A stretch of DNA of 53,638 bases from Actinomycetota bacterium. GTDB lineage: Bacteria > Actinomycetota > Acidimicrobiia > IMCC26256 > VFJJ01. Position 1 is the first letter of the stretch. The number at the start of each line of letters is the position of its first letter. A model generated the notes under the pieces. It made no database searches. It had not been told where the DNA came from and worked only from the letters and a program-made list of their open reading frames with translations. A program made the position numbers and the translations under genes. Shown piece by piece: positions 5,333 through 42,148 of this stretch. The stretch is taken from positions 1-53,638 of the forward strand of contig VFJJ01000103.1 in assembly GCA_009886115.1 (NCBI GenBank), written 5' to 3'.

Positions 5333-6751
5333 ACGCCCGGCTGTCGCCGATCGCCGGTGACGATGCCCGTGGACGTGATCTCGGAGATGGCGTCGGTGAT
5401 CAGCTCGACGTTGTCGCGCTTGAGCGCGGCGACCCACACGCCGTTGTCGAGCACGACCCGTTTCGACGTGGGCGGATACGGCGGCACGACCTCAGCCAGC
5501 AGATCGGGACGGTCGGCGAACATGACGTCGAACCACATCGTGAGCAGCTCGCGCAGCTCCTGGTTGGCTTGGCCGACCGAGCGGGTCATGTCGGGCCAGT
5601 CGTCGTCGACACGACAACTCGGCAGCATCCCCTCGGCAGCGCGCCAGAACAGCTGGAACCGGTGCCAGTGCGCATATCCCGGGACGTGCGCGAGGAGCCA
5701 ACGCATGCCCGGGGTGACCTCGGCGTGGTAGTCGAGCACGGGGAAGAACCAGTTGGGCGTGCGTTGGTACACGTCGAGTCGCGCCAGCTTCCCGGCGATC
5801 TCGGGGACGAGCTGCACCGAGCTGGCGCCCGTCCCGATCACCGCCACCCGCTTGCCGGTGAGGTCGACGTCGTGGTTCCAGCGCGACGAGTGCCACGACG
5901 GGCCGGCGAAGGTGTCGACGCCGGCGACGGCGGGCATCTTGGGCCGATTGAGCTGACCGACGGCGCTCACGACGGCCTGGGCCTCGATGGTCTCGTCGCC
6001 ATGGGCCGTGGCGAGCTCGAGGGTCCAACGCGCCCGAGCCTCGTCGTAGGTCATCGCCGTGACCTCGGTGCCGAAGCGGATGCGGTCGCGCAGGCCGAAG
6101 TCGTCGGCGAAACGGCGGAAGTACCCGAGGAGGGCCGGGCCGGTGGAGAAGTGGTGCGACCAGTCGTGGCGCTGGGCGAACGAGTAGCTGTAGCAATGGT
6201 TGCTGATGTCGACGCGACATCCCGGGTAGCTGTTCTCGAGCCAGGTACCGCCGACATCGTCGTTCTTCTCGATGATCACGAACGGTACGCCCGCCTGGTC
6301 GAGCCGATGTGCGGCGAGCAGGCCCGACATGCCCGCGCCGACGATCACCGTCGTGAAAGCTCGCTCGGGCGCCAGGTCGTCCTTGTGCCACATGGGCGCG
6401 CGTAGATCGTCGCCGGTGACCGAGAGCTCCTCGCGCATCATCGGCACGTAGTCGTCGCCCACGGTCTGGCCGACCGCCTGCTCCATCAGCCGGTTGATCG
6501 TGTCGGCATCGGGCTGCGGCGCAAGCCGGCACCCGCTGTCGCGATAACGCGCCAGCGTGGCGGCCGCGAGCTCGATGATCGCGCTGCGCTGCTCGGGCGA
6601 GTAGCCGTTGTTCGGCTCGCGCACCTTGAGGGGATCGGGTGCGAGGTCGTCGCGCAGCAACGACAGATCGCCGGTGAGCGCTGCCAATGCAGGCAACAGC
6701 GCCGGGAGCTCGGCCGTCTCGACGGCCGCTCGGATGAACTCGTCGTCCTCG

Positions 6752-6881: not shown

Positions 6882-7349
6882 TCACGTCGATGGGCCCTGC
6901 GCCGACCCCTCACCCGTGTCGGACGGCTGCGGGTCGCCCGTCGCCGATGTCTCGTCGGTCGTCGCGAACTCGAGCGACAGGGAGTTCATGCAGTAGCGCA
7001 GACCTGTGGGACGGGGCCCGTCGGGGAAGACGTGCCCGAGGTGCGAATCGCAACGGGCACAACGACTCTCGGTGCGGCGCATCCCGTGGGTCGTGTCGTC
7101 GATCTCCTTCACGGCGTCGGGCCCGACCGGCTCCCAGAAGCTGGGCCAGCCCGAGCCCGATTCGAACTTGGTGTCGCTCGTGAACAGGTCGTTGCCGCAC
7201 GCCCCGCACTGGTAGATGCCCGTCTGCTTGTTGTGCAGCAGGGCGCCCGTCCCCGCCCGCTCGGTGCCGCCTCTGCGCAGCACGGCAAAACGCTCCGGCC
7301 CGAGCTTGTCGAGCCATTCCTTGTCGCTGAGTTCGATCTTGTCGCTCAT
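6882..7349 (-). CDS. msrB: Peptide-methionine (R)-S-oxide reductase
   Basis: Reduces the R-epimer of methionine sulfoxide in proteins, using thioredoxin as electron donor. The 155-residue product has both zinc CxxC pairs (CGAC and CARC), the SGSGWPSFWEP substrate loop, HLGHVFPDGP, and the catalytic Cys in GLRYCMNSLSL. Residues after ~130 (TTDETSATGDPQPSD...) are a disordered tail. The ATG at 7349 is clear. A CAGACT element seven bases upstream may be a weak -10 of a leaderless promoter. The stop overlaps the GTG of the monooxygenase. Confidence 0.96.
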   Translation of the reverse strand: MSDKIELSDKEWLDKLGPERFAVLRRGGTERAGTGALLHNKQTGIYQCGACGNDLFTSDTKFESGSGWPSFWEPVGPDAVKEIDDTTHGMRRTESRCARCDSHLGHVFPDGPRPTGLRYCMNSLSLEFATTDETSATGDPQPSDTGEGSAQGPST

Positions 7350-7391
7350 GCCGTGCAGTCTGGCACCTCGGCAGTTCGCCGCGGCGGGCGC

Positions 7392-7790
7392 TCAGGTGAG
7401 CGAGGCCGGATGAACTCTCAGCACCGTGTGACGGCTCAGCGTCGCGAAGTCGGAATCGAAGTGGAGGACGGGGGCGTCCGCTCGGATGGCGACTGCAGCG
7501 ATCAGGCAGTCGATGAGCTTGCGGACCGGCTCGCCGCTGCGGCGGCATGCCCGGTACAACGCTGCTGCCTCGTCGTAGTCGCCGGGCTCCATCGAGATCA
7601 CACGAGCCCGACCCAGCAATCTCCTGAGCTGGCTGAGATGCCGCTCGTCGCGTGCTCCTGCGAGCACCTCCATGCTGACCACGTCGCAGATCGCCATGTC
7701 GTCACCGAGGAGCAGGTCGACCGCGTCACACGTGACCGACCCGGTGTCGCGGAGGAACTCGACCCAGGCTGAAGTGTCGATGAGGATCAT
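7392..7790 (-). CDS. vapC: VapC-type PIN-domain toxin (module 1)
   Basis: 132-residue PIN-domain ribonuclease. It has the catalytic acidic residues in order: ILIDTSAWVEFLR (Asp), VVSMEVLAGA (Glu), KLIDCLIAAVAI (Asp) and HFDSDFATL (Asp). This is the usual VapC length. It should cleave RNA when released from its antitoxin. The ATG at 7790 overlaps the vapB stop by 4 bp (ATGA), the classic antitoxin-first operon. The RNA target cannot be inferred. Confidence 0.92.
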   Translation of the reverse strand: MILIDTSAWVEFLRDTGSVTCDAVDLLLGDDMAICDVVSMEVLAGARDERHLSQLRRLLGRARVISMEPGDYDEAAALYRACRRSGEPVRKLIDCLIAAVAIRADAPVLHFDSDFATLSRHTVLRVHPASLT

Positions 7791-7990
7791 CCGGCGCGGC
7801 TGGCCCGAATGCCTTCGAGATCGCCATCCCAACCGGAACCTCGGAGCCGGCGGGCGTCGTCGAGATCGAGGGGCTCGGCGGCCAGCTTCCGGAGGGCCAA
7901 GTTGACCGCATCGCGCTTGGTGGCCAGCTGGTAGCGCTCCATCACCGCCCGGCACGCCTCGTCGTCGATGTCGATGTTCGTCCGGCTCAT
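7787..7990 (-). CDS. vapB: VapB-type antitoxin (module 1)
   Basis: 67-residue protein beginning MSRTNIDIDDEACRAVMERYQ with KRDAVNLALRKLAAEPL, the ribbon-helix-helix pattern of VapB (a beta strand followed by two helices) that binds DNA as a dimer. The C-terminus (RLRGSGWDGDLEGIRAS) is the toxin-wrapping tail typical of this subfamily. A leaderless promoter and four 11-bp-spaced ACACC(A/T) repeats sit immediately upstream, consistent with autorepression. Confidence 0.92.
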   Translation of the reverse strand: MSRTNIDIDDEACRAVMERYQLATKRDAVNLALRKLAAEPLDLDDARRLRGSGWDGDLEGIRASRAG

Positions 7991-8029
7991 ACACCTATTT
8001 TACACCATAGAAACACCAGCGCGACACCA
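7991..8029 (-). promoter_or_regulatory. vapB module 1 promoter with 11-bp-phased repeats
   Basis: Minus-strand TAAAAT (-10) at 8002-7997 leaves 6 nt to the ATG at 7990, predicting a leaderless mRNA. On the plus strand ACACCT/ACACCA hexamers start at 7991, 8002, 8013 and 8024, exactly 11 bp apart, with a poorer fifth copy at 8035. The array spans the -10 and the presumed start site. It is probably the VapB(C) operator; the periodicity is seen, the role inferred. Confidence 0.7.
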
Positions 8030-8114
8030 TCGGGGCACCCGTCCCCGCAGGCAGTCGACCAGCCCGTCGCTCATCTGCCGGACGGTCGGTCGTCGCCACC
8101 TGACGGACAACGGC

Positions 8115-8150
8115 GCTGTATGTGGTGCTGTATGCGGCGCTGTATAATGT
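8115..8150 (+). promoter_or_regulatory. vapB module 2 promoter with three 12-bp repeats
   Basis: Three direct repeats start with GCTGTAT at 8115, 8127 and 8139 (12-bp period). The third contains a perfect TATAAT -10 at 8143-8148, seven bases before the GTG at 8156, so the transcript should be leaderless. Likely an autoregulatory operator overlapping the promoter. Confidence 0.7.
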
Positions 8151-8155
8151 GCCAC

Positions 8156-8377
8156 GTGACGGCGACGAGAACGCAGATCTACCTGACCACCGAGCAACGT
8201 CGACGTATCGACGAGATCACCTCGACGCAGGGGACCACCCTCGCCGACGTGGTCAGGAGAGCGCTCGACCGCTACCTCGCCGACGAGCAAGCCGACCCGG
8301 CCAGTGCGCTCGCTTCGACATTCGGCGCCGCGCCCGGGATCGACATCCCCGATCGCGACGAGTGGGGCCGTGGCTGA
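8156..8377 (+). CDS. Ribbon-helix-helix antitoxin (VapB-like, module 2)
   Basis: 73-residue protein starting VTATRTQIYLTTEQRRRIDEIT, then TTLADVVRRALDRYLADE: an RHH DNA-binding domain in the first ~45 residues, then an acidic tail (PGIDIPDRDEWGRG) to bind the toxin. The GTG at 8156 is preferred because TATAAT ends eight bases upstream; an in-frame ATG at 8147 would overlap the -10 box and is unlikely. It overlaps the downstream PIN gene by 8 bp. Divergent from module 1, so the two promoters share the ~165-bp gap 7991-8155. Confidence 0.88.
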   Translation: MTATRTQIYLTTEQRRRIDEITSTQGTTLADVVRRALDRYLADEQADPASALASTFGAAPGIDIPDRDEWGRG

Positions 8378-8717
8378 CGTCCTCGTCCACACCGACATCT
8401 TCATCGATCACCTGCGCGGCGCCCACCAGCTGAAGCCGGGCAAGCACCGCCTCCACTACTCGGTGGTGACGCGGGCCGAGCTGTTCGCGGGGACGACCGC
8501 CATCGACGCCGTGAGCAGGCTGTTGGCCCCGTTCCGGGAGCTGCCGGTCGATCGGGCGGTCGCCGAGCGGGCCGGTCGCATTCGGCGCGACACCCGCATC
8601 CGCTTGCCCGATGCGCTCATCGCGGCGACGGCGTTGGAGCACGGCCTCGGCCTGGCCACCCGCAACCGATCCGACTTCGCCACCGTCGCCGGCCTCCGGC
8701 TCCGGGCGCTGCCGTAG
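8370..8717 (+). CDS. VapC-like PIN-domain toxin (module 2)
   Basis: 115-residue PIN protein: VADVLVHTDIFIDHLRGA, VVTRAELFAGT, RIRLPDALIAATAL and ATRNRSDFATVAGL give the usual order of acidic residues. In most relatives the first strand ends in D-T-D/S; here it reads H-T-D, so the first catalytic Asp appears replaced by His, leaving the Asp two residues on. The GTG start at 8370 lies inside the antitoxin's last codons (8-bp overlap). Probably a ribonuclease toxin, with activity uncertain because of the substitution. Confidence 0.85.
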   Translation: MADVLVHTDIFIDHLRGAHQLKPGKHRLHYSVVTRAELFAGTTAIDAVSRLLAPFRELPVDRAVAERAGRIRRDTRIRLPDALIAATALEHGLGLATRNRSDFATVAGLRLRALP

Positions 8718-8753
8718 CTCGGTGTCGCCGCGCTGTGACCCCGGCGTCCGGTC

Positions 8754-9000
8754 TCACCAGGAGATGGTGACGTCGATGACGCCCGTCTCGAGCTCGGCGA
8801 TGACCTCGAACTGGTCGGGGTGCATGTCGATCACCCTGCCGGCGCCGTTGGCGGCGCCGTAGGGGCCACGGTCGTTGACGGTGCACGTGACGCTCGCGCC
8901 GGTGTCGTCGTTGGTGACCGTGACAACCGTGCCGATGGGCAACGTCCTGTGCGCGCACCCGAGACCGGGGCGTGGGCGTAGAACGTGGCCCCGGACCGAC
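8754..9000 (-). pseudogene. RlpA-like double-psi beta-barrel gene, frameshifted and leaderless
   Basis: The C-terminal frame (8754 to ~8960) reads CAHRTLPIGTVVTVTN, TCTVNDRGPYG, GRVIDMHPDQFEVI and ETGVIDVTISW, the RlpA/expansin-like double-psi barrel with its conserved His and DRGP motifs. The expected beginning of the domain, GATFYAHAPVSG, is present just upstream but in another frame; loss of one base in a G-run near 8957-8962 would explain the break. No signal peptide or start codon can be placed, because a 13-bp repeat occupies the upstream DNA. A peptidoglycan-binding or lytic protein was probably encoded once. Confidence 0.55.
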
Positions 9001-9021
9001 CTCGGAGCAGCGCCGAACCTG

Positions 9022-9085
9022 TGCTGGCGCCGAACCGCAGCGCCGAACCGCAGCGCCGAACCGCAGCCCTGAACGGCAGCGCCGA
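9022..9085. repeat. 13-bp tandem repeat between the RlpA remnant and enoyl-CoA hydratase
   Basis: About four copies of gccgaaccgcagc (the last degenerate), 13 bp long and so not frame-preserving. It lies where the signal peptide of the RlpA gene would be expected and ends just before the enoyl-CoA hydratase stop at 9112. Confidence 0.75.
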
Positions 9086-9111
9086 AGCTCGACGCGCTCT
9101 GCGCTGGTGCG

Positions 9112-9897
9112 CTACCTGTCGTCGCGCTGCGCCTGGCGACTGCGCCATGCGGCCACCGCTGCTGGGTAGTCGGGGAGCTCCCGCGAGATGGCCTCGTAGG
9201 CGAGCGAGACGTCGAGGGTCTGCTCGACCATCCAGCGCACGTATCGGTTGACGGCCATCTTGGTGGCCCGCGCCGCGTAGGCGGGCTGCGCGGCGAGGCT
9301 CCGGGCCAACTCCTGGGCGGCCGCAGCCAGCTCCCCCGCCGGGAGAGCACGGTTGACGAGACCCATGGAGGCGGCCTCGGTGCCGGTGACGTTCCGGCCC
9401 GACAGCAGCATCTCCTTGGCCCGATGGGGTCCGATCACGATCGGCAACACGACTGCCGCGCCGTCGCCGGCAACCAGGCCCAGGTTCACGTGGGGATCGC
9501 CGATCGTGGCGTCGTCGGCCATGAGGACGATGTCGCACAGCAGCGCGATGGTGAGGCCCATCCCGATCGCCGGGCCGTTCACCATGGCCACCATGGGCTT
9601 CTCGACCTCGAGCATGCGGTGGACGAGGTGCCAGCCCCGCCGGTTCACACGGGGATCGTGCTTGGTACCGAACGAGCGCACGTCGCCACCGGCGGTGAAG
9701 GCCCGCCCGGCGCCGGTGAGCACGATGGCGCCCGTCGACTCCTCGAGATCGACTCGGCGAAGGGTTTCCATGAACAGCTCGACCGAGTCGGGATCGAGCG
9801 CGTTGAGACGCTCGGGCCGGTTGAACGTGATCGTGGAGACCGCATCCGCGTGCTCGACGAGAATCGTGGGCTCCTCGGTCCGGACTTTGGCTGTCAC
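9112..9897 (-). CDS. Enoyl-CoA hydratase/isomerase family protein
   Basis: 261-residue crotonase-fold enzyme that hydrates or isomerises an enoyl-CoA in the cytoplasm. Oxyanion-hole motifs GAGRAFTAGGDVRSFG and NGPAIGMGLTIALLCDIV are clear. The usual catalytic PE(I/V) of hydratases reads DPHVNLGLVAGDG here, so the first catalytic Glu is replaced by His; such variants are common in a crotonase subgroup and may not be true hydratases. The GTG at 9897 overlaps the upstream acyl-CoA dehydrogenase stop (GTGA), so the two are translationally coupled. Confidence 0.88.
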   Translation of the reverse strand: MTAKVRTEEPTILVEHADAVSTITFNRPERLNALDPDSVELFMETLRRVDLEESTGAIVLTGAGRAFTAGGDVRSFGTKHDPRVNRRGWHLVHRMLEVEKPMVAMVNGPAIGMGLTIALLCDIVLMADDATIGDPHVNLGLVAGDGAAVVLPIVIGPHRAKEMLLSGRNVTGTEAASMGLVNRALPAGELAAAAQELARSLAAQPAYAARATKMAVNRYVRWMVEQTLDVSLAYEAISRELPDYPAAVAAWRSRQAQRDDR

Positions 9898-15212: not shown

Positions 15213-15662
15213 TCACGACGGGTCTGCCTCCGGGTGACGTTCCATGACGCCGAGGGTGATCCGCATCCCGTGGACCGCCGGGAGCACGCGCTCCTCCAGA
15301 ACCGCCCACTCCTCGCTCCACGGCCGTCGGCCGGTGTAGACGAGACGGTCGATCACCTCGACGCCACGACCGGCCACGCTGGCCTCGGCGACGTCGAGGT
15401 CGGCCACCACGTACACCACCGTGTAGACGCCCTCGCCGTTGCGCGCGAGGAAGTCGAGGAACTTGGCCGGACCCTCGCGGGACGGGGCGACGACCTCCAC
15501 CCCGTTGTCCAGCGAGAACGCGACGCGCAGGCCGCCATCGTGCATGTCGAGGCGCTCGAAGACGACACCGAGCGCTTCGCTCCACAGGGCGACGGCGTCG
15601 TCGAACGACTCGTCGTGCACGCAGTACACGACATGGCTGAGACGGTCGACACGCGGGTTCAC
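15213..15662 (-). CDS. VOC (glyoxalase/bleomycin-resistance-like) family protein
   Basis: 149 residues with the VOC beta-alpha-beta-beta-beta pattern: VDRLSHVVYCVHDESFDDAVALWSEALG, GGLRVAFSLDNGVEVVAP and a second module AKFLDFLARNGEGVYTVVYVVADLD. Potential metal ligands are His10 and Glu residues near the ends of each module. GTG start at 15662, two bases downstream of the acyl-CoA synthetase stop. Members include epimerases and dioxygenases; in this acyl-CoA cluster a methylmalonyl-CoA-epimerase-like or accessory role is possible, not shown. Confidence 0.78.
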   Translation of the reverse strand: MNPRVDRLSHVVYCVHDESFDDAVALWSEALGVVFERLDMHDGGLRVAFSLDNGVEVVAPSREGPAKFLDFLARNGEGVYTVVYVVADLDVAEASVAGRGVEVIDRLVYTGRRPWSEEWAVLEERVLPAVHGMRITLGVMERHPEADPS

Positions 15663-38204: not shown

Positions 38205-40169
38205 CTATTCGCGCGGCTCGCCCACCCATTCGAAGTGCATGCCGTCGGGGATGGTGAAGCCGCCACCCCAGGCGAAACCCCAGCGGCGGAAGATCGCCAC
38301 GACCCTCGGGTCGATGCGAGGCGTGGCGCCGAAGGCGTTGGTGCGCGGGTTGATGTCGACGGCGATCCCCCACGAATGCCGGGAGAGGCTGCCGCCGCTG
38401 TTCGATCCGGGCGAGCGGATCTCGCGCGGGACGTAGCAGCCACCGTTGCGACGCGTGTCGGCGAGGTCGATCGCGCCGGCCAGGCCGGCAGCGGCCACCT
38501 CCCCGAGGGCCCCACGCAATGCGGGCATGATCGTCCGGTGACAGCGCAGGAGCCCGATGAGGGGGACGGGCTCGGTGACGATGTTCGCCGCGACCCATCC
38601 GGCCTCGGGGCTGATCGAGTTCCCGCCACCGGAGAACGCGAACTCACCCAGCCGGCGCTTGAGCTCGGCCGTGTCGAGGACCCGATCGGGGCTCGGCGCA
38701 TCCCATGAACGTCTGACCCGGATACCAGGGGTCGCGCCCAGACGGCGTCCGAGCACGAACTCGATCGCGGCCCGGGACCGGTAGCCCCAGATCCGTACCG
38801 ACGACGGCCGCACGAATCCGAAGGAGGCCGCCACCCCGTCAGCGAAGAGCAGCTCGATCGAGCCGACATCGGCGTCGTCGGCGACGAGCCCGATCGTCGC
38901 CGACGACACGGCGCCGTTCCATCCCAGGAACTCGACCACATCGCCGACCTGCGCCCCCCGCAGCGCTGCCGAGGTTGAGCCCATCACGACCTGCCCGGTG
39001 CTCAGCACGCGGCCGACCTCGGGGCTCATGAGCTCGACGGCGGCCGCGGGGTCGATCGCGGTCGAGGCCATGGGGTAGCGCATGCCCGGCGGCGCCGCCT
39101 GCACCACGGCGCCACCCCGCATCACGCGATACAGACCGATCGTCCCCGCGTGCACCACGGTGGAGAAGCCGCCCACGTCGTTGGCCGCCGCGACCGCAGA
39201 CCGGATCGTCGCCGCGTCGAGCTGTCTCGCCGCGCCGACCGTCACCAGCTCCCGGCCCCGTCCGAGCACGACCCAGGTGGACCCCGTCGGGGCGACTCCG
39301 ATGCCGACGGGCCAGTCGCCCGCCAGGTCGACGGGGGGGATGGTCGCCTTGGCGGCAACGCCGAACGTCGAGACGACACCGAGGTTGTCGACGGTTGCGT
39401 ACCCACCCGGGGCCACTGCGATGGCGGCGACCATGCCCTGGGTGACCGGCCGGCCCAGGAAGGCCGCGTCACCGAACGCGAAGATCCCACCGTCACGAGC
39501 GGCCAGCCAATACCCGCTGCCCGACGGTGTGGCGGCCACCCCCACGACCGGCGCCAGCAACGGGGATCCGCCCGTCGAGCCGAAGAACCGAGCATCACCG
39601 AACGCGAAGATCCCACCGTCACGAGCGACGAGCCAGTAGCCGTTGCCGGTGGGGCTCGCGGCCATGCCAACGATCGGTTGGTTGATCACCTGGCTTCCGG
39701 TGGATCCGAAGAAACGAGCATCGCCAAACGCGAAGATCCCACCGTCGGCGGCGACGAACCAGTACCCCTTGCCCGCGGGATGGGCGGCCATCCCCACGAT
39801 CGGCTGGTTGAGCGTCAGGTTGCCGGTCGATCCGAAGAAGACGGCATCGCCGTATGCGAAGATCCCGCCGTCGGCCGCGACGAGCCAGTACCCGTTGCCC
39901 GTTGGCGTGGGCGCCAGACCCACCAAGGGGAATCGGAGCGCGAGCTCGGCTGGCGAACCGAAGGATCGGGATCCGAAGACGGCAACCACGTCGGTCGCCG
40001 CAACGCCCAGCGGGCGGACCCGTTGACGGTCGTCGACGATCTCGACGTCGGCCGGATCGACATCGGCGTGCGCTGCGGTTCCTGTGAGCACCAGAGAGCT
40101 CACCAGGACACTCGTCAGCGCCGCCGCCACGACGTGGCGCGCGCGAAGAAGGTCGGGCGTTCGGGACAT
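38205..40169 (-). CDS. Secreted repeat protein with M15-type D-Ala-D-Ala carboxypeptidase domain
   Basis: 654 residues. Signal peptide (VVAAALTSVLVSSLVLTGTAAHA) at the N-terminus. Residues ~60-240 hold four to five ~43-residue repeats of the type GNGYWLVAADGGIFAYGDA, each followed by FFGSTG and an (P)IVGMAA segment, a cell-surface repeat frequent in Acidimicrobiia. The C-terminal ~110 residues are an M15/VanY-like zinc peptidase: SRHSWGIAVDIN gives His598 and Asp605, and MHFEWVG gives His645. It probably trims peptidoglycan outside the cell, with the repeats as a surface or spacer module. Confidence 0.88.
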   Translation of the reverse strand: MSRTPDLLRARHVVAAALTSVLVSSLVLTGTAAHADVDPADVEIVDDRQRVRPLGVAATDVVAVFGSRSFGSPAELALRFPLVGLAPTPTGNGYWLVAADGGIFAYGDAVFFGSTGNLTLNQPIVGMAAHPAGKGYWFVAADGGIFAFGDARFFGSTGSQVINQPIVGMAASPTGNGYWLVARDGGIFAFGDARFFGSTGGSPLLAPVVGVAATPSGSGYWLAARDGGIFAFGDAAFLGRPVTQGMVAAIAVAPGGYATVDNLGVVSTFGVAAKATIPPVDLAGDWPVGIGVAPTGSTWVVLGRGRELVTVGAARQLDAATIRSAVAAANDVGGFSTVVHAGTIGLYRVMRGGAVVQAAPPGMRYPMASTAIDPAAAVELMSPEVGRVLSTGQVVMGSTSAALRGAQVGDVVEFLGWNGAVSSATIGLVADDADVGSIELLFADGVAASFGFVRPSSVRIWGYRSRAAIEFVLGRRLGATPGIRVRRSWDAPSPDRVLDTAELKRRLGEFAFSGGGNSISPEAGWVAANIVTEPVPLIGLLRCHRTIMPALRGALGEVAAAGLAGAIDLADTRRNGGCYVPREIRSPGSNSGGSLSRHSWGIAVDINPRTNAFGATPRIDPRVVAIFRRWGFAWGGGFTIPDGMHFEWVGEPRE

Positions 40170-40234
40170 GCCACCAGTCTGGCCGGCGCGCGACCCGCTG
40201 CCGCGCCGACGCTGCCCGATGCACAGCGGGACGG

Positions 40235-40726
40235 TCAGCTCTGGTCATCCATCGGCTGGCAGGCGCGGTCGAGGCCCAGCACCCGGGTGAGGCGGCCGTA
40301 GGCCATCCACGATCCGACCGAGATCCCGAGATCGAGGATCTCTTCGTCCGAGAACAGGCCCCGCATCCGGGCGATGAGCTCAGGCGTGATGCTCTCGTGG
40401 TCGAGCGCGAACCGCTCGGCGTACTCGACGGCCATCCGCTCCTGGTCGGTGTAGCCCGGCCAGGTCGCCCAATCGCGCAGGTGCGTGTAGTGCTCCTCGT
40501 CGACACCTCGGTCCGCGAACTGCGGCACCCGGTGGTGGAGTCAGACGAAGCACCCGTTGATCTGGGCGATGCGCATGCGCGCCGCCTCCGAGACCCGAGG
40601 CTCGAGGATCGAGTGCCGGGCGATCGACCTCGAGAGACCGGTGACCGCGGCGCCCATCTCGGGTCGCAGGGCCCAGACCCGCCGCGCTTGGTCCCCGTCA
40701 CCGTCGGGCACTCTGATGTACGCCAT
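40235..40726 (-). CDS. AhpD-like/carboxymuconolactone-decarboxylase-family protein, probable CxxU selenoprotein
   Basis: One 163-codon frame with a single in-frame UGA at codon 62 (40543-40541). Upstream: MAYIRVPDGDGDQARRVWAL ... EAARMRIAQINGCFV; downstream: LHHRVPQFADRGVDEEHYTH ... EYAERFALDHESITPELIARMRGLFSDEEILDLGISVGSWMAYGRLTRVL. Both halves match the CMD/AhpD alkylhydroperoxidase fold, and relatives have a CxxC redox motif at C59-F-V-x62. The UGA stands where the second, reactive Cys belongs, giving C-F-V-U. A SECIS-like hairpin follows. ATG 40726 has ggggag at a 7-base spacing. Alternative: a simple nonsense mutation of TGC/TGT to TGA, in which case this is a pseudogene. Confidence 0.78.
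40504..40534 (-). promoter_or_regulatory. Candidate bacterial SECIS hairpin downstream of the UGA
   Basis: Starting 7 nt after the UGA the RNA folds as CACC / GGU / bulged G / CCGC, loop AGUUC, GCGG / ACC / GA / GGUG: three helices of 4, 3 and 4 pairs. The apical loop has G then U at positions 2-3, with that G 21 nt after the UGA. Known bacterial SECIS elements need a short stem, a small apical loop with an early G (GU in E. coli fdhF), and this distance range. Confidence 0.65.
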
Positions 40727-40757
40727 GGCAGCACTCCCCGCGACTTGAGCTTCCGCA

Positions 40758-40766
40758 GCCTACGCT
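40758..40766. promoter_or_regulatory. Overlapping divergent -10 elements (AhpD-like and NYN genes)
   Basis: TAGGCT on the minus strand (40763-40758) and TACGCT on the plus strand (40761-40766) share three bases. The plus promoter is 8 nt from the ATG at 40775 (leaderless); the minus one gives a ~25-30-nt leader with a Shine-Dalgarno. Only one direction can be occupied by polymerase at a time. Confidence 0.6.
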
Positions 40767-40774
40767 CGGAGTCG

Positions 40775-42148
40775 ATGATTCCTGACGACGAACGTATCGC
40801 TCTCTTCCTCGACTACGAGAACCTCGCCATCGGCGCCCGGGAAGGGCTGCGGGGGCACAAGTTCGACCTCCGCCCCATCGCCGACGCCCTGGCCGCCCGT
40901 GGAAGAGTCGTGGTGCGCCGCGCGTACGCCGACTGGTCGTACTTCAGCGACGACCGACGCATGCTCACGCACAACCACGTCGAGCTGATCGAGATCCCGC
41001 AGCGGATGGGCGCTGTACGCAAGAACGCCGCCGACATCAAGATGGCCGTCGACGCCATCGAGCTCTCGTTCGAGCGCGAGTACATCACGACGTTCGCCAT
41101 CTGTACCGGCGACAGCGACTTCACACCCCTCGTGCACAAGCTCCGCGAGCTCAACAAGAAGGTGATCGGGATCGGCCTCAAGTCGTCGACCTCGGCGCTG
41201 TTGCCCCCGGCGTGTGACGAGTTCCTGTTCTACGAGCGCCTCGAAGGCGTCGACCTGAGCGCACCCGCTTCCAAGACCGGCGGCGGGTCCGGTGGCGCCA
41301 GCGGCGGCTCGGGCGACCGATCCGACACCAGCGAAACCGCCAGCGACAAGCCCAAGACGCGTTCGAGACGATCGCCGCCGAAGAAGGCTGCGGTGGCCGG
41401 ACCCGATGCGGGCACCGACGGCACCGGGGCCGACGACGGCATGCCGTCCGACGGCGAGGCCCCTACGAGCGGGGTCCGTGTCGGCGCGGCCTCCGACACC
41501 GAGATCGCCAAGCTCGTCACCCAGACCTTGACCGGTATCAAGCGCAGCGTCGACGGGCCCGTGTCGGCCTCGGTGCTCAAGCGCACCTTGTTGCGCAAGG
41601 ACCCCACGTTCGACGAGAGCGACCATGGCTTCCGGGTCTTCGGCGAGCTGCTGCGCCATCTCGAGGAGCACAAGGTCATCTCGCTGCGGCCCGGATCGGC
41701 TCAGGGCGATCCCGAGGTCGACTTCCCCGAACAGACCGGCGAGGAGGAGATGGCCTTCCGGCTGCTGCGCGACGTCGTGCTCGAGCAGCAGCGCCGCGAC
41801 GGCCCTCCGCTGTTGTCGGGGCTCAAGAACAAGCTCCGCAAGCGCCAGCCCGACTTCACCGAGAAGCGCTTCGGGTACGCCGGCTTCCTCCAGTTCTGCA
41901 CGGCGGCTCGGGCCCGGGGCTTCGTCGACATGGATTGGGACGACGAGGCCGACGACTACTTCATCGAGGCCAGCGGCAACGTCGCCGAGCCGAGCCCTAT
42001 CGCGGCGACAACACCGACGGCACCGACGGCACCGGCAACGCCGACAGCGCCTGCGGCAGCAGCGGCAGCAGCGGCATCCACGCCCGAGCCCAAGGCTCCG
42101 CGCACCTCGACCCGAGCCCCTCGGCGCCGCACCGCCCCCCGGCCGTGA
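40775..42148 (+). CDS. NYN-domain (PIN-like) protein with two OST-HTH/LOTUS domains
   Basis: 457 residues. N-terminal NYN nuclease-like domain: IALFLDYENLAIGAR, KNAADIKMAVDAIEL and FAICTGDSDFTPLVHKLRE carry the conserved acidic residues of the PIN-like fold. After a Ser/Gly/Pro-rich linker come two OST-HTH/LOTUS modules, about residues 240-312 (EIAKLVTQTLTGIKR ... DHGFRVFGELLRHLEEHKVI) and 318-395 (EMAFRLLRDVVLEQQ ... KRFGYAGFLQFCTAAR), which bind RNA in other systems. The C-terminus is an Ala/Pro/Thr-rich basic tail. The combination suggests an RNA-processing or RNA-surveillance nuclease. Leaderless promoter TACGCT. Confidence 0.92.
   Translation: MIPDDERIALFLDYENLAIGAREGLRGHKFDLRPIADALAARGRVVVRRAYADWSYFSDDRRMLTHNHVELIEIPQRMGAVRKNAADIKMAVDAIELSFEREYITTFAICTGDSDFTPLVHKLRELNKKVIGIGLKSSTSALLPPACDEFLFYERLEGVDLSAPASKTGGGSGGASGGSGDRSDTSETASDKPKTRSRRSPPKKAAVAGPDAGTDGTGADDGMPSDGEAPTSGVRVGAASDTEIAKLVTQTLTGIKRSVDGPVSASVLKRTLLRKDPTFDESDHGFRVFGELLRHLEEHKVISLRPGSAQGDPEVDFPEQTGEEEMAFRLLRDVVLEQQRRDGPPLLSGLKNKLRKRQPDFTEKRFGYAGFLQFCTAARARGFVDMDWDDEADDYFIEASGNVAEPSPIAATTPTAPTAPATPTAPAAAAAAAASTPEPKAPRTSTRAPRRRTAPRP

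Follow-up and report, generated by a model that had tools for sequence, protein, structure and literature searches.

An AhpD-like gene from an Acidimicrobiia genome, with an in-frame UGA at its second redox position, as a probable selenoprotein gene

AhpD-like proteins carrying a CxxU motif have long been described among the selenoproteins of prokaryotes and of marine metagenomes (PMC1794560, PMC2398784, PMC9312934, PMC13188914), in line with the first-pass annotation of the locus presented here, which named them as a known family. Two groups have been distinguished, AhpD-like 1 with 299 Sec forms and AhpD-like 2 with 70 (PMC2398784). In Pseudomonas aeruginosa, the AhpD-like PA0269 shows weak activity as a peroxidase, with a relay for protons formed by Glu36-Cys48-Tyr50-Cys51-His55; its His55 corresponds to His137 of the Mycobacterium tuberculosis AhpD (PMC3141380). 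SelA/SelB have been seen in bins of sponge symbionts that belong to various phyla (PMC5649159), and none of the papers searched mentions Acidimicrobiia along with selenoprotein and selenocysteine.

The present gene lies in a 53.6-kb stretch of DNA from an Acidimicrobiia genome (the window, by which we mean the whole stretch analysed). We compared it with these systems by computation, through its frame, the Sec machinery of the genome, the Sec/Cys exchange among homologues, a SECIS-like hairpin and the predicted fold. It shares with the known AhpD-like selenoproteins (COG2128/YciW or pfam02627) the same domain, the CxxU motif and many Cys homologues, and the Sec would likewise occupy the second redox position (C59-F-V-U62). 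The features of the locus are as follows.

40235..40726, minus strand: predicted AhpD-like (CMD, probably COG2128/YciW-type) selenoprotein gene, 163 residues including Sec62 (sequence, CMD match, alignment, predicted fold)
40541..40543, minus strand: in-frame UGA, predicted Sec62, second redox residue of C59-F-V-U62 (only TGC, TGA or TGT in this column at 100 homologous sites)
40550..40552, minus strand: Cys59 codon TGC, first redox residue (invariant in the alignment)
40510..40529, minus strand: putative SECIS hairpin (fold; register and loop G common to UGA homologues; covariation)
40734..40739, minus strand: Shine-Dalgarno-like GGGGAG, 7 nt 5' of the ATG (read from the sequence)

The minus-strand frame (40726-40235) comprises 163 codons from the ATG at 40726-40724 to the terminal TGA at 40237-40235, the sole internal stop being the TGA at 40543-40541, and it passes through the site without a frameshift (codons TGC TTC GTC TGA CTC CAC CAC, in the context R I A Q I N G C F V (TGA) L H H R). 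When the TGA is read through, the product has 163 residues before the terminal stop, and its Pfam CMD match (residues 22-104, E 7e-9) spans the UGA and scores 35.9 bits against a cut-off of 23, which places it in the CMD/AhpD-like family (pfam02627); the homologue alignment is free of frameshifts on either side of the UGA. The first-pass annotation had claimed an otherwise intact frame, a UGA at the second redox position of C-F-V-U in a CMD/AhpD-like protein and a Shine-Dalgarno sequence, and all three are confirmed from the sequence. A normal promoter, also claimed, could not be recovered by a sigma-70-type scan of 40100-40900, which found none; in an actinobacterial genome of 70% G+C this is weak evidence either way. 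A six-frame scan of the whole window gave three TGAs lying between high-GC3 stretches of the same frame, and those at 15215 and 37075 (minus strand) turned out to be ordinary gene junctions, so that the UGA at 40543-40541 stands out.

Under table 11 the ORF list sets the halves apart as 40726-40541 (61 aa) and 40528-40235 (97 aa), the two short ORFs that had been foreseen. The gene might yield two proteins, a 61-aa piece and a 97-aa piece re-initiated at the in-frame GTG 40528, 12 nt past the UGA, or the UGA might be read as another residue by near-cognate suppression. However, both the CMD domain and the helix of the redox pair span the UGA, the GTG sits within the proposed SECIS hairpin, and Cys is the sole alternative residue in the homologues; we consider these readings very improbable, and Sec insertion remains the preferred explanation.

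The means for decoding UGA as Sec, which the first-pass annotation had proposed to look for, are encoded in the host genome (5.45 Mb in 224 contigs, with an estimated 95.6% completeness and 3.0% contamination). It has one tRNA-Sec (66.2 bits, above the Rfam cut-off), called by ARAGORN as tRNA-SeC with a UCA anticodon, on the same contig, C73, as the adjacent selA (8493-9821, 458.7 bits) and selB (7318-8412 with a C-terminal piece at 6586-6726, 320.5 bits including this second piece); selD is found on contig C57 (398.4 bits). The G+C and tetranucleotide profiles of these loci lie inside the spread seen among fragments of the window (correlation 0.83-0.92), contig C57 standing at its lower edge, and contamination is thus a poor escape from the presence of the machinery.

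Homologues were drawn from 80 related genomes and from GTDB species genomes, and at a threshold of E <= 1e-20 the column of Sec62 could be read at 100 homologous sites, where the codon is TGC in 63, TGA in 23 and TGT in 14, with no other codon. This is the alignment of Cys (77 sites) with UGA that the first-pass annotation had wanted checked among close homologues. The 23 UGA sites include near-duplicates and come down to 20 distinct downstream sequences, window gene counted. At 55% identity, the nearest homologues belong to the same order as the window genome and have Cys, and UGA homologues appear from 53% identity downwards; in plasmid records no homologue reaches 60% identity, the best standing at 41%. 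These data bear on the possibility of a pseudogene, in which a TGC>TGA nonsense mutation would have inactivated an ordinary Cys-containing AhpD-like gene: TGC and TGT are one base away from TGA and the halves are separate ORFs under table 11, but the frame has no other lesion, the conserved residues 3' of the UGA are retained, the Sec machinery is complete in the genome, and 19 other distinct sequences carry UGA at the same codon together with a covarying hairpin. We therefore hold it highly unlikely that the gene is inactivated, and return to the reading of the UGA as Sec.

The hairpin of the window gene extends from +15 to +34 counted from the U of the UGA (GGT-G-CCGC-AGTTC-GCGG-ACC), with a single-base bulge at +18 and an apical loop at 40521-40517 that contains the conserved G at 40520. 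The UGA homologues have a hairpin at the same place, most of them with the register i+j=50 for its pairs; in three the register is 49 and the loop has 4 nt. The G at +24 in the apical loop is invariant among the UGA homologues. Compared with synonymous recodings, the hairpins of UGA genes are more stable, with a mean z of -2.2 and 65% of the genes at p<0.05, whereas the same region of the Cys genes gives a mean z of -0.26 and 5.6%. For 15 sequences the covariation score is 0.373 against 0.199 +/- 0.031 after shuffling (0 of 500 as high), changes occur on both sides in five of the eight pairs, and sliding the hairpin register lowers the score every time. Taken alone the window hairpin is modestly better than its synonymous recodings (p about 0.1) and it is bulged, so its case rests on the family. 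Since the region of the terminal TGA also folds into a stable structure, folding energy by itself was not counted as evidence, and we used the position, the conserved loop G, the covariation and the synonymous-codon null. When the window was compared with Rfam, no known RNA was found, and hence no Rfam family covers the hairpin at gathering score.

Further UGA genes are present in the same genome. The gene for formate dehydrogenase alpha (fdhA, C80:17964-19832, minus strand), an independent and already known selenoprotein, carries UGA at its classical Sec position (SCNRT-U-HAPS), and a hairpin lies downstream of it. Besides the window gene there are three AhpD-like CxxUGA genes, four in the genome altogether. 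The closest paralogue (C122:2690-3157, plus strand; CHIU) is 38% identical to the window protein and has a SECIS-like stem of 8 bp; two more distant AhpD-like genes, C9:7658-8071 on the minus strand (CRTU) and C120:7880-8338 on the plus strand (CGFU), have strong hairpins with an AGTT loop 3' of the UGA, the loop of the window gene being AGTTC. Against the Pfam cut-off of 23 for CMD, the C9 protein scores lower (20.5) and the C120 protein higher. The C9 and C120 genes each adjoin another AhpD-like gene without an internal UGA. A search of the host genome for the SelW-type family found none.

With these genes a sequencing or assembly error at one base, in which the true codon would be TGC or TGT, can be weighed. 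The assembly is made of many contigs, but UGA stands at the homologous codon in the three paralogues of the same assembly and in unrelated assemblies, and the window hairpin is in the register of the UGA homologues while Cys homologues are without it. As the same codon and the same hairpin recur in 19 further distinct UGA sequences, drawn from many assemblies, a base-call error is implausible, and we judge it the least probable of the alternatives. We thus propose, with a probability of about 0.96, that the gene encodes a selenoprotein whose UGA 62 is read as Sec via SelB and the downstream hairpin; the selenocysteine first suggested for this codon is supported by the machinery, the Cys/UGA column and the covarying hairpin. 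That the gene is an additional member of the already known AhpD-like selenoproteins, with three relatives in the same genome, is well supported.

The protein was modelled with AlphaFold2 using 37 homologues, which gave an all-helical model (pLDDT 91, pTM 0.85) whose best PDB matches are PA0269 and Atu0492, in agreement with an AhpD-like fold. The best of them, PA0269 (2IJC, 2O4D), is matched with TM 0.71/0.81 and 29% identity, and both proteins share Glu-x11-Cys-x-x-[Cys/Sec] on two adjacent helices, Cys51, His55 and Tyr50 of PA0269 corresponding to Sec62, Arg66 and Val61. In the alignment of the window protein with its 36 homologues, Glu47, Cys59 and Cys/Sec62 are invariant; so is Arg66, at the C+4 position, whether the form is Sec or Cys. 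The characterised AhpD proteins have His at C+4, the proton-relay position, and Val61 replaces the residue at the His132/Tyr50 position. Thus, Glu47, Cys59 and Sec62 are present but the canonical peroxidase relay Glu...Cys-x-[His/Tyr]-Cys-x3-His is incomplete. Of the first-pass assignment to CMD/AhpD peroxidases the CMD/AhpD-like part stands and the peroxidase part is a guess: with the invariant Arg66 in place of the relay His, an AhpD-type peroxidase mechanism is unproven, though peroxide may plausibly be a substrate.

On this basis we suggest that SelB and Sec-tRNA(Sec) would decode the UGA at codon 62, directed by the hairpin 15-34 nt downstream and within the coding sequence, with formation of an all-helical AhpD-like protein in which the Cys59-x-x-Sec62 pair would be placed at the start of a helix, beside Glu47 of the neighbouring helix. 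Such a protein is most likely a thiol/selenol oxidoreductase, in which Sec may attack a peroxide, a disulfide or another oxidised substrate, Cys59 may resolve it through a selenenyl-sulfide, and a cellular reductant would recycle the latter.

Among curated NCBIfam models the best for the window protein is NF053654 (GroundWater_YciW, YciW-related (seleno)protein), which matches all 37 aligned homologues; the window protein reaches 60 bits against a cut-off of 310 and is a relative of that equivalog family, not a member, and the COG2128/YciW-type assignment, which follows from this match, is accordingly a probable one. NF041238 (AhpD_rel_CFYUT) and NF041047 (GSU3128 family) describe AhpD-related (seleno)proteins that are CxxU like the window protein; neither matches it at E <= 0.001, and they match weakly 1 and 3 of the 37 homologues. 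No curated NCBIfam selenoprotein model reaches its cut-off on the window protein, and with the best at 60 bits versus 310 automatic annotation would probably split the gene. With table 11 and the curated selenoprotein models, this gene and its relatives would be broken off at the active site.

In the tree, Sec forms and Cys forms are intermingled. On its 98 rows the Sec/Cys label changes 10 times by parsimony, at least five of the changes being forced by well-supported branches; the window's order has Sec forms in several of its families, marine Acidimicrobiaceae have them too, and all 36 mycobacterial rows are Cys. With a midpoint root only and the placement of the window gene unsettled, the tree is silent on the direction of change. 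Either selA or tRNA-Sec was found in 9/9 genomes with a UGA homologue versus 15/24 with Cys homologues only (Fisher p 0.034, a value that ignores kinship among the genomes). The Cys-only relatives in which neither was found (G006, G013, G019, G024, G043, G051, G055, G056 and G076), several of them incomplete, are consistent with loss or replacement of Sec. The result extends the use of AhpD-like selenoproteins to Acidimicrobiia, one actinobacterial genome having at least five UGA genes; the intermingled forms are well suited, as a natural experiment, to asking why Sec is retained in some cases and replaced in others, and the His-to-Arg change is a subfamily trait of interest. It is possible, if rather doubtful, that these proteins form a distinct Acidimicrobiia-centred CxxU...Arg selenoprotein subfamily with three further AhpD-like UGA paralogues in one genome and repeated Sec/Cys exchange, in which Arg in place of His would mark a substrate or mechanism other than that of AhpD peroxidases.

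The gene neighbours, which give no hint on function, are a secreted M15 peptidase-like gene downstream on the same strand and a divergent gene (40775-42148, plus strand) for a putative RNA-binding or nuclease protein with a NYN domain and a LOTUS (OST-HTH) domain.
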